Positions 14,213-43,890 of a stretch of 43,890 bases of DNA are shown one piece after another. Position 1 is the stretch's first letter. Each line of letters begins with the position of its first letter. The position numbers were made by a program, and so were the translations under genes. The DNA comes from Acetofilamentum sp. (lineage in GTDB: Bacteria; Bacteroidota; Bacteroidia; Bacteroidales; DYOH01). The notes under the pieces were generated by a model, which was not told the DNA's origin, searched no databases, and was given only the letters and a program-made list of their open reading frames with translations. The DNA lies in NCBI GenBank assembly GCA_020720625.1, contig DYOH01000024.1:1-43890 (forward strand), written 5' to 3'.

Positions 14213-14286
14213 CGGTCTGGACGGGACTCGAACCCGCGACCCCATGCGTGACAGGCATGTATTCTAACCAACTGAACTACCAAACC
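14213..14286 (-). tRNA. tRNA-Asp(GTC)
   Basis: The minus strand gives a 7-bp acceptor stem (GGTTTGG with CCAGACC, one G-T pair), discriminator G73 as expected for tRNA-Asp, anticodon stem CATGC/GCATG with loop CTGTCAC (anticodon GTC), and T-arm GCGGG-TTCGAGT-CCCGT. CCA is not encoded. It is identical to the copy at 14409-14482. Confidence 0.96.
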
Positions 14287-14408: not shown

Positions 14409-14482
14409 CGGTCTGGACGGGACTCGAACCCGCGACCCCATGCGTGACAGGCATGTATTCTAACCAACTGAACTACCAAACC
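14409..14482 (-). tRNA. tRNA-Asp(GTC), second copy
   Basis: Base-for-base the same 74-base gene as at 14213-14286, with the same anticodon GTC and discriminator G. The duplication gives two identical genes 122 bases apart. Confidence 0.96.
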
Positions 14483-34580: not shown

Positions 34581-34712
34581 GAATAGCCTTTAGAACTAAT
34601 TTTCTATCCGTATGCAAGCAAAAAATTACTTTTAACCGGTAAATAAATCTTATCCCAAATGTTTATCTTAGTTAGCCACCTACTTATTTCGGACTAGCTA
34701 TGCTTATAATTA

Positions 34713-35045
34713 GGGTTTGCTGAATGCCGCTAAAAATAAGTTCTTTATATTATTATTTCTATAAATTATAATTTCGGGTGCAAGCTTTTTTAAGCAGAAC
34801 TTGCGAAAACCTTATGCTTAATTAGGATAAGGTAATAAGGTAGAAAGAAAAGCAGTTGTTTATTTCTACTAAGGTGTACCACCCACGTAAGAGCACCAAA
34901 AACCTTATCTGCTATTTACACCTTAGTAGTTAGTATTTTAAAAACGCTGTTAAACCTTATTACCTTATTATATAGCCACTGAGATGAAAACCTTTTTTTG
35001 AAATTCTCATTTAAAATCGTTCTATTTAAGTTTTTCAGCAGACCA
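34713..35045. mobile_element. 333-bp structured repeat element, complete copy
   Basis: Ends are inverted (left GGGTTTGCTGAA; right, complemented, TGGTCTGCTGAA) and TAATTA stands on both sides (34707-34712 and 35046-35051). Inside are two perfect nested inverted repeats: ATAAGGTAATAAGGT (34827-34841) with 34954-34968, and CTACTAAGGTGTA (34866-34878) with 34917-34929. A 5-bp stem (34775-34779/34799-34803) encloses a GCTT/AAGC hairpin. It has no coding capacity. The left 170 bases recur at 43716-43890 with about 80% identity. In the rest of the 34581-35293 gap I see only the right direct repeat and a terminator. Confidence 0.75.
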
Positions 35046-35144
35046 TAATTAGTTAGTAGTATAAGTCTTTTTTATTGACATTAAAGTGGTTATGTATGAA
35101 TACGATTTATGCGCAACGGATTTTATAAATTAGCTTATCAGTTT

Positions 35145-41749: not shown

Positions 41750-42436
41750 ATGATGTATAAAAACTTTTTTTTGCTGCTGTTTTTTTTATTTTATCAGTGT
41801 AACGAAAATTCAAATTCGGATATGAAAACTTTGTCGTACCTTGCTCTTGGCGATTCGTATACTATTGGAGAGCGTGTGTTGCCAGTGGAGCGTTTTCCGG
41901 TGTTGCTTTATCAGAAACTAAAAAATGATGGTTTTAATTGGGTGGAGCCAACAATTATTGCCAAAACCGGTTGGACTACCAGCGAATTGGCTGGTGCAAT
42001 TTCTGCAAGAAATATCGGCGATTCCGTTTTTTCGATGGTTAGTTTGCTCATCGGTGTAAATAATCAATATCGTGGGGGAGATACAGCAGATTATCGACGC
42101 GAATTTGCCGATTTACTGAAAACTGCCATTAAATTTGCAGGAAATAAAGCCGAGAGGGTGCTTGTTTTGTCTATTCCCGATTGGGGTGTTACTCCTTTTG
42201 CTGCCAATAGGGATACTGCTTTAATTGCATCGCAAATTGATGCATTTAATCGTATTAATAAAGAAATTGCTGTGAATAATGGCGTTTTTTATGTGGATAT
42301 TACCGAAATTTCGAGATTTGCTAAATTCCAGCCTGATTTAATTGCCGATGATGGTTTGCATCCATCAGCGTTGATGTATCAGATGTGGGTAGATAAAATG
42401 TTTGTTTTTGCAAAAAATATACTAAAAAATGAGTAA
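41750..42436 (+). CDS. SGNH/GDSL hydrolase, predicted lipoprotein
   Basis: 228 residues from ATG 41750 (a second ATG follows directly). The ATG at 41660 adds 30 residues without homology and lies before the promoter box. A signal segment ends in LFYQC with Cys17, a plausible lipobox. Catalytic Ser36 is in GDSYTIGE, block III is GVNNQYRGG, and Asp/His are in IADDGLHPS near the C-terminus. An esterase or lipase with unknown substrate. Its last 8 bases overlap the start of kynU, so the two are coupled; a functional link to kynurenine is not obvious. Confidence 0.88.
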   Translation: MMYKNFFLLLFFLFYQCNENSNSDMKTLSYLALGDSYTIGERVLPVERFPVLLYQKLKNDGFNWVEPTIIAKTGWTTSELAGAISARNIGDSVFSMVSLLIGVNNQYRGGDTADYRREFADLLKTAIKFAGNKAERVLVLSIPDWGVTPFAANRDTALIASQIDAFNRINKEIAVNNGVFYVDITEISRFAKFQPDLIADDGLHPSALMYQMWVDKMFVFAKNILKNE

Positions 42437-43709
42437 TTCGTATCTTCATTTTGCTATTGCACAAGATGCCAAAGATGAGTTGAGAAAGTTTAGAGCGGAA
42501 TTTTTCAAAACCGACGAAAATTTAATTTATCTCGATGGAAATTCATTGGGCAAAATGCCTTTATCCACCATTGATGTTTTAAAAAACACACTAGAGAAGG
42601 AGTGGGGCGAAAATCTTATCCGAAGTTGGAATAAAAGCTGGTATACTAAAAATAGGGCAATCGGCGCCAAAATTGCCGGGCTTATCGGGGCAAAGCCCGA
42701 AGAAATAATTGTGGCCGATAGTACCTCTATAAACATCTATAAGCTTGCCTTTGCAGCGCTGCAATATCGACAAGGAAGAACGGCCATAGTGAGCGATGAG
42801 CTCAATTTTTCTACAGATTTATATGTTTTGCAAGGTTTAATAGCGCATCAGTTTAAAAATCACCAACTAAACATAGTTGCCTCTGCCGACGCAATGAGCA
42901 TTCAATTAGATGATTTGGCTTCGGCAATTACGCATCATACAGCTCTGGTTCAGCTTAGCCATGTGGCTTTTAAAAGTGGTTTTATGTATTCCATTGACGA
43001 GGTTAATAAACTTATTCATCATGCAGGTGCACTTGACTTGTGGGATTTAAGTCATTCTGTTGGCGCTGTTCCTTTGGAATTAAATCGTTGGAATGTTTCG
43101 CTGGCTATAGGATGCACCTATAAATATCTGAATGGCGGACCGGGTTCGCCCGCTTTTTTGTATGTGCGAAAAGATTTGCACGAAGATTTGATAAATCCGG
43201 TAAGCGGTTGGTTTGGTGCGGCAAAGCCCTTTAATTTTTCTTTAGAATATGAAGCAGCGAGCGATATCTCTAAATTTTTGAGTGGAACGCCTTCTATTTT
43301 GGCGCTTAATGCCTTAGAGGTGGGTATTGATATGCATTTAAATGCCGGAAAGCAAAATATCAGGGCTAAAAGTTTGTTATTGTCGCAATTTCTTTTGCAT
43401 TTGTTTCATCAAAAACTTCGTAAGCTTAATTTTGAATTGGGTAGCCCCGAAGTGGATGAAAACCGTGGCTCGCATATTTCTTTGAAACACCCCGAAGCGC
43501 GCCGAATTTGCGAAGCCCTTATTCAACCGGATATTGGAAACCATGTGGTGATTCCCGATTTTAGAAGTCCGGATAATATTCGCATTGGTTTAACTCCTTT
43601 ATACACATCGTTTCAGGATATTTACTATGCCGTTGAAGAATTGGAATTAATTGTGAAAGAAAAACTTTATGAGAAAATACAGTTAGATTCGAATCAGGTG
43701 GTTACATAG
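42429..43709 (+). CDS. kynU: Kynureninase
   Basis: 426 residues, normal length. PLP-dependent hydrolysis of kynurenine or 3-hydroxykynurenine to anthranilate or 3-hydroxyanthranilate plus alanine, in tryptophan breakdown or NAD synthesis. LDGNSLGKMP near 36, 'RSWNKSWY' near 65, Asp and His of LWDLSHSVGAVP near 205, PLP Lys near 232 in GCTYKYLNGGPG, and 'SGWFGAAKPF' near 258. The start overlaps the SGNH gene by 8 bases. Its stop codon stands directly before a structured repeat element, but the C-terminus looks complete. Confidence 0.95.
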   Translation: MSNSYLHFAIAQDAKDELRKFRAEFFKTDENLIYLDGNSLGKMPLSTIDVLKNTLEKEWGENLIRSWNKSWYTKNRAIGAKIAGLIGAKPEEIIVADSTSINIYKLAFAALQYRQGRTAIVSDELNFSTDLYVLQGLIAHQFKNHQLNIVASADAMSIQLDDLASAITHHTALVQLSHVAFKSGFMYSIDEVNKLIHHAGALDLWDLSHSVGAVPLELNRWNVSLAIGCTYKYLNGGPGSPAFLYVRKDLHEDLINPVSGWFGAAKPFNFSLEYEAASDISKFLSGTPSILALNALEVGIDMHLNAGKQNIRAKSLLLSQFLLHLFHQKLRKLNFELGSPEVDENRGSHISLKHPEARRICEALIQPDIGNHVVIPDFRSPDNIRIGLTPLYTSFQDIYYAVEELELIVKEKLYEKIQLDSNQVVT

Positions 43710-43710
43710 T

Positions 43711-43890
43711 GGCTGCTGAAATAACGCTAATAATTAGTTCCTTAGGATATTACTTCTATAGATAATAATTTCGAGTGCAAGCTTTTTAAAGCAGAACTCG
43801 CGAAAACCTTATTCTTATATAGGATAAGGTAATAGGGTAGAAATTAAAGCTACAGTTTTTTTTCTACTAAGGTGTACCCCAAACATAAGT
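43711..43890. mobile_element. Structured repeat element, second copy cut by window end
   Basis: Begins TGGCTGCTGAA one base after the kynU stop. It aligns with the first 180 bases of the element at 34713-35045 at about 80%. The stem at 43772-43776/43796-43800 (CGAGT/ACTCG) matches CGGGT/ACTTG of the other copy with pairing kept, and the inner hairpin reads GCTTT/AAAGC against GCTT/AAGC. ATAAGGTAATAGGGT and CTACTAAGGTGTA are also kept. The right half lies outside the window. Confidence 0.7.

Follow-up and report, generated by a model that had tools for sequence, protein, structure and literature searches.

An IS5-type MITE of Acetofilamentum sp. that probably carries a REPIN-like core tied to a single-copy Y1 transposase

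The repeated element at positions 34713 to 35045 of an Acetofilamentum sp. contig (GenBank assembly GCA_020720625.1, DYOH01000024.1) is in all probability (roughly 0.8) a non-autonomous IS5-type MITE, ∼335 bp long, whose center holds a REPIN-like passenger. The window, by which we mean the whole stretch of 43,890 nucleotides that was analyzed, is the entire contig (C4) of a 3.8 Mb genome assembled in 143 contigs. Besides the complete copy it holds a second copy on the plus strand (43709-43890), the remainder of which is cut off by the contig end; because the window is the whole contig and the copy runs to its end, the shortening reflects the assembly and not the biology. A sequence-only reading of this DNA had reported both copies, the full one exactly and the second from 43711, and had estimated that they differ at about one base in five; the BLAST identity is 83%, that is, about one in six. 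It had also proposed a search of the genome and its relatives for further copies, which returned 44 matches in this genome by DNA search, seven of them near full length; among the 99 genomes searched from the order, 9 hold the central part of the element, the core. The near-complete copies are 13 to 19% different from the window copy. Numerous other matches end at or close to contig ends, the usual effect of repeats on an assembly, and 5 of the 44, comprising the core only, lie on contig C92 next to a Y1 transposase gene. No ORF of at least 100 aa overlaps 34713-35045, and the element is thus devoid of a transposase gene; plasmid records gave no match to it. The alignment for this genome comprises 18 of 30 loci, leaving out L016 (internal deletion) and L020 to L030, all but one of which have a match shorter than 110 bases.

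The ends of the element are inverted repeats of the GGGTCTGCTGAAAAA type accompanied by a 6-bp duplication, TAWWTA. In the window copy, the left terminal inverted repeat (TIR; GGGTTTGCTGAAT, 34713-34725, plus strand) and the right one (35031-35045, minus strand) are bordered by the same hexamer, TAATTA, at 34707-34712 and 35046-35051, whereas the second copy has TACATA on its left (43703-43708), its right side lying beyond the contig end. Alignment of the copies gives TIRs of the form GGG(G/T)CTGCTGAAA..., and a genome search for TAGGGNYTGCTGAAA that tolerated one mismatch gave 78 matches versus 2 for the reversed control; loose TIR matches inside the window alone are not above the number expected by chance. 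The duplication is exact in six of the eight copies in this genome that have both ends on one contig, and off by one base in L005, while L003 fails to show it, and in the sister family of another genome, G002, it is exact in only one of five copies. Copy L004 sits in the TAATTA of a second, 465-bp MITE with the same ends, a site that is uninterrupted at six other places; comparison of the filled site, which has TAATTA twice, with these empty sister sites, which have it a single time, identifies TAATTA as the duplication. For the window copy, no empty chromosomal site was found in a genome of the same genus, where solely a core fragment matched. A kynureninase-like ORF (42429-43709) runs up to the second copy, and its final TAG spans the insertion junction (43703-43709): the TA comes from the target hexamer and the G is the first base of the element, so that the insertion supplies the stop of the ORF.

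The same TIR followed by TAAWTA was found in at least 109 stretches from Bacteroidota, cyanobacteria, and other phyla. Two elements (L187:2554-4155 and L192:1654-3437) have end pairs enclosing 1602 and 1784 bp, a TATTTA duplication, and a transposase inside, and their transposases score 385 and 375 bits with the NCBIfam IS5 model NF033578 (cut-off 275). Elements without the core have these ends too, namely the second family of this genome and the transposase-bearing IS5 elements. Based on the TIRs and the TAWWTA duplication, which are as on intact IS5-family transposons of other genomes, the outer shell is classified as an IS5-type MITE, and since ends and 6-bp duplications of this kind are those of a DDE transposon, they show that the element was inserted by an IS5-family (DDE) transposase acting in trans. 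An IS5 transposase gene with these ends was not found in the fragmentary assembly of this genome, where the only IS5 match is one of 44 positions, without these TIRs, on contig C64. The second MITE family (L059:938-1402, L060:111-575, and also L056 and L062 to L064) is 465 bp long, with the same IS5-type ends, other hairpins (CCGTAGCATTTATGCTACGG, GGCTTTAGCC), and a role as target of the element studied here. Both MITE families contain a third short element (L058 near 1850, L061 near 1350-1460), its ends resembling GAGTCTAGTCTAAAAACCC, and another repeat (TTGAATTAGGC[GA]TTTA..., GTAGAGCAAAAAATATGCATG) stands beside truncated copies, in the flanks of L008, L010, L017, L025, and L027.

The REPIN-like core occupies 34825-34969 on the plus strand and consists of two inverted units of ∼75 nt each in the order x' a' z' - z a x. 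Its arms are x' (34826-34841, the minus strand reading ACCTTATTACCTTATC), a' (CTACTAAGGTGTA, 34866-34878), z (AAACCTTATC, 34900-34909), a (TACACCTTAGTAG, 34917-34929), and x (ACCTTATTACCTTATT, 34954-34969), the last four on the plus strand. The pair x'/x is ATAAGGTAATAAGG/CCTTATTACCTTAT and a'/a is CTACTAAGG.../...CCTTAGTAG, while z'/z is weaker; the two perfect nested inverted repeats noted in the sequence-only reading fall in the first two of these pairs and were recovered at 15 nt (34827-34841 with 34954-34968) and 13 nt (34866-34878 with 34917-34929). The core is separated from the TIRs by a left arm (34726-34824), which has no detectable homology to the sister family of another genus, and a right arm (34970-35030), both given on the plus strand. 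The fold beats chance both as DNA (z = -3.7) and as RNA (z = -3.9), with none of 100 shuffles equal in either case. Judged by reading the alignments, a hairpin within the single unit a-x is not evident, and GTAG occurs within arm a (ACCTTAGTAG), away from any hairpin foot.

Pairing in the core was examined in 37 rows from six genomes, aligned with plain MAFFT without structure fitting. The helices are paired in 95.7% of cells, 27 cells are changed on both sides, and the covariation score was reached by none of 500 shuffles. In a tree-null test, a home-made imitation of R-scape, the mean score of the 28 proposed pairs lies above all 300 simulations; no single pair is significant: the best of the 28 has an E of 0.08, and once every column pair is counted these pairs have E above 20. 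With 15 rows (this genome, G002, and one from G004) the signal did not clearly exceed that of shuffles, the covariation score being reached by 34 of 500 and other measures by more. Alignments A1 and A2 omit L209, which has a deletion in arm x', and A2 further omits the near duplicates L003 and L006, the core hits of G001, G084, and G086, and the weak G002 hit L275; many covariance-model core hits lie outside the pairing alignments. Covariation of this sort is no proof of RNA, because a protein-binding unit that is present twice, in inverted orientation, can show covariation even when folding is not under selection. At gathering scores, Rfam 15 matched two tRNAs alone in the window and nothing over the element; the tRNA genes, on the minus strand at 14213-14286 and 14409-14482, have equal scores and are 122 bp apart.

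The sequence-only reading had based its case for folding on a different hairpin, which lies in the left arm (34775-34803, plus strand). The stem CGGGT/ACTTG (34775-34779 with 34799-34803) is indeed CGAGT/ACTCG in the second copy, and the inner GCTT/AAGC is paired in both, as that reading described. Among 14 distinct copies (18 rows), 89.7% of cells are paired, a share reached by 1 of 500 shuffles, and the covariation score was reached by 20 of 500; several pairs are broken overall, pair 8-30 in 4 of the 14. A tree-aware test on 16 of the 18 aligned copies (L018 and L019 have no left half) found no significant pair, with a best E of 0.72, and the covariation anticipated at this stem thus fell short of significance among copies genome-wide. 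The stem is poor evidence for folding selection. Of the proposal that folding is selected in a mobile element, the mobility holds; folding as single-stranded DNA is plausible, though in the core and not in this stem. A match to a known insertion-sequence end, which the same reading had named as speaking against its view, is provided by the IS5-type ends; its statement that no named family matches accordingly fails for the ends and largely stands for the core. Taken together, the evidence points to transposase recognition rather than to selection on RNA.

The stems of the core are more conserved than the rest of the element. In eight nearly full copies from this genome, the mean pairwise difference is 0.038 in the core stems, 0.236 in the core linkers, 0.155 and 0.236 in the arms, and 0.156 in the TIRs, a stem divergence 4 to 6 times below the rest of the element. 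The corresponding values for six sister copies are 0.079 (stems), 0.200 (linkers), 0.173 and 0.207 (arms), and 0.142 (TIRs). Column permutation with the TIRs left out gave a result as extreme in 0 of 10000 trials for this genome and 1 of 10000 for the sister family. Private changes, those found in a single copy and mostly younger than its insertion, are also rarer in the stems, at 0.013 versus 0.031 per cell in this genome (p = 0.003) and 0.033 versus 0.058 in the sister copies (p = 0.04). Such conservation is compatible either with a factor that still recognizes the core or with copy-against-copy repair.

The core arms recur beside the only Y1_Tnp gene found in this genome, on contig C92, in the order a' a x - gene - x' a' a. 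This gene has one in-frame TAA; its homologue in genome G018 is open and flanked by the same units, and both encode the Y motif YILNQKEHH, which fits Y---Q--HH. Close to its Y1 gene, G018 also has tight a x - x' a' doublets, whose arrangement resembles what would remain if the gene were lost and its two ends joined. The G018 homologue scores 59.6 bits with the IS200 model NF033573 (cut-off 55) and 20.4 bits with the RAYT model NF047646 (cut-off 80), and by these scores the transposase is classed as IS200-like, not as a classical RAYT. R-R' doublets of Y1 units bounded by an outer repeat (GGCATTTTTCAT...ATGAAAAATGCC) occur at L033 in G084 and at L047 and L055 in G018, in two families of the order.

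With the G018 protein as the query against a sample of 395 genomes of the phylum, we examined 30 returned loci, nine of which have at least 63% identity (the gene of this genome, at 73%, among them); the next best complete gene in the 395 genomes has 46%. Units a and x stand directly upstream of the start in all nine of these close homologues, and x' and a' within ∼90 bp downstream in eight; the ninth, L326, shows no unit in the 137 bp that remain downstream before the contig end. By comparison, none of the 21 homologues of 39 to 47% identity has a unit within 650 bp, and three of them have a lone unit match at 681, 710, and 1250 bp. A search at the level of the order found close homologues with units on both sides in G004 and G018 and, in G077, one with units downstream and none upstream. 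Across both searches, units flank the examined close homologues on at least one side in 12 of 12 cases and on both sides in 10 of 12, a count made without two fragments, from G246 (59% identity, two stops) and from G084 (52% over 52 residues), the latter with no units nearby. A search of G002, the genome of the sister family, gave no Y1 homologue; those found in G037, G019, and G001, genomes that likewise contain cores, are distant (28-35%) and not flanked by units. Through the units that they share, the core can be assigned with confidence to the system of a single-copy HUH (Y1, IS200-like) transposase.

The covariance model of the core, made in R'-R order from 15 sequences and run with stricter filters that may lose weak matches, accounts for the nine genomes of the order mentioned above (G000, G001, G002, G004, G012, G019, G037, G084, and G086); G018, with its units in R-R' order, is not hit. 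In G002, from another genus of the same family, the core lies in the sister family, which measures 335 bp and has the same TIR and layout. The cores of the two families are homologous (mean z = 11; in none of 10 comparisons did any of 100 shuffles do as well), whereas the arms show no homology (mean z ∼0), their lengths agreeing within a few bases. In G004, in another family, the core lies inside an element of ∼227 bp with quite different outer inverted repeats (AACCTGAGTTCGGGATAAG). Outer repeats of this type are present in 6 of the 99 genomes, the five besides G004 having no core hit, and 12 fetched loci revealed no clean duplication and no transposase between the ends, which as pairs are only 226 to 244 bp apart. 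One core in this genome (C123, L272) and likewise a core in G012 are without IS5 ends. G012 has two core types with matching changes on both arms (AATAAGGTAATAAGG/CCTTATTACCTTA versus AATAAGGGAATAAGG/CCTTATTCCCTTATT), and clear terminal inverted repeats could not be set for the cores of G037.

How the core came to lie in a MITE can be set out conditionally. It may have been placed there by the Y1 transposase, or the MITE may have formed around it; entry into the MITE lineage would have occurred once, before the families of the two genera split, and IS5-type transposition would then have multiplied it. The stems would be kept because the Y1 transposase recognizes them as single-stranded hairpins, or because stem-keeping copies were favored; that the Y1 enzyme acts on the core is our inference. 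Both engines look spent in the assembled genome, given the in-frame stop of the Y1 gene and the failure to find an IS5 gene with these ends, and this, together with the 13 to 19% distance of the near-complete copies, suggests that the family is probably old. A credible competitor, although on balance somewhat improbable, is that the core is a mere passenger, a REPIN-like pair trapped by chance in a MITE that was amplified once, its stems kept by gene conversion or base composition. The apparent inactivity of both engines suits this account, and a single ancestral capture suffices for both families, whose arm lengths agree so closely. However, the stems are conserved in both genera, also among private changes; the G004 core inside another inverted-repeat element implies that the association was repeated; and one pair that is G-C in 8 of 8 A2 rows of this genome, as in its own gene-flanking units, is T-A in 24 of the 29 rows from other genomes.

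A structured RNA element with a fold kept for the sake of a transcript would explain the strong RNA fold and the pairing maintained across genera, but it is very unlikely given that what is conserved is the sequence of the units beside the transposase gene, units also found in the opposite order, R-R', and given the lack of an Rfam match at gathering scores. It is harder still to believe that the whole 333 bp is mobilized by the Y1 enzyme and that the IS5-like ends are coincidental. Longer arms do surround some cores of other genomes, in some cases bearing outer inverted repeats, yet the same ends and TAWWTA occur on core-less elements, including the second family of this genome and transposase-bearing IS5, and the target duplication is present, whereas Y1 enzymes of the IS200 kind are not known to make one. 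We thus retain the IS5-type MITE with a REPIN-like passenger. A more ambitious version, in which the 335 bp keep, under selection, the recognition signals of both a double-strand DDE (IS5-type) and a single-strand HUH transposase and represent a new, phylum-wide REPIN-like system of IS200-like 'subclass 1.2' transposases, is doubtful at present. The proposed element matters in that one short piece of DNA would bear recognition signals of two different mobile systems, the units of one being carried, and kept conserved, within miniature transposons that belong to an unrelated other. REPIN-like repeats may use such carriage in MITEs to spread, or to survive once their own transposase decays. A likely DNA partner also emerges for a clade of orphan IS200-like transposases, and its units are strict enough for searches and tests.

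Among known systems, the REPINs and their RAYTs, as described in the available text of PMC3116915 and PMC3733652, resemble the core in having two inverted units that fold together, in being dispersed, and in their tie to a single-copy Y1 gene flanked by the same units. The units here differ in measuring ∼75 nt, and the short hairpin with a GTAG (GT[AG]G) foot that characterizes each REP is not seen in them, neither an evident hairpin within the unit nor a GTAG at the foot of one; the transposase is IS200-like and below the cut-off of the RAYT (TnpA_REP, class 2) model. Among titles and the starts of abstracts in the open-licence literature, we found no MITE carrying REP units and no REPIN/RAYT work in this phylum, and the available text of a MITE review (PMC10969869) does not contain the words 'IS200', 'nested', or 'Bacteroidetes'. 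According to the available text of PMC6006769, where TnpA_Y1 subclass 1.2 was first characterized, this subclass has the Y motif Y---Q--HH, is found mostly in Cyanobacteria and Bacteroidetes, and is generally without typical IS200 terminal structures. The transposase described here fits it by the Y motif (YILNQKEHH), the one feature used for the assignment, and is also IS200-like and present in one copy in its genome; that text names no repeats, whereas the clade with this motif has flanking units and dispersed copies. TIRtrons and their TIRYT genes, in the available text of PMC3733652, likewise combine a Y1 gene with flanking long inverted repeats that form a repeat family, but the repeats here are also found inside DDE-type MITEs, a comparison made by description and not by sequence. 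With IS5-family MITEs the element shares the kind of TIR found on transposase-bearing IS5 elements, the 6-bp TAWWTA, and the lack of a transposase gene of its own; an autonomous partner, which is not always required, was not found in the fragmentary assembly. What sets it apart from them is its center, which carries the units of an unrelated HUH transposase, with stems more conserved there than the TIRs.
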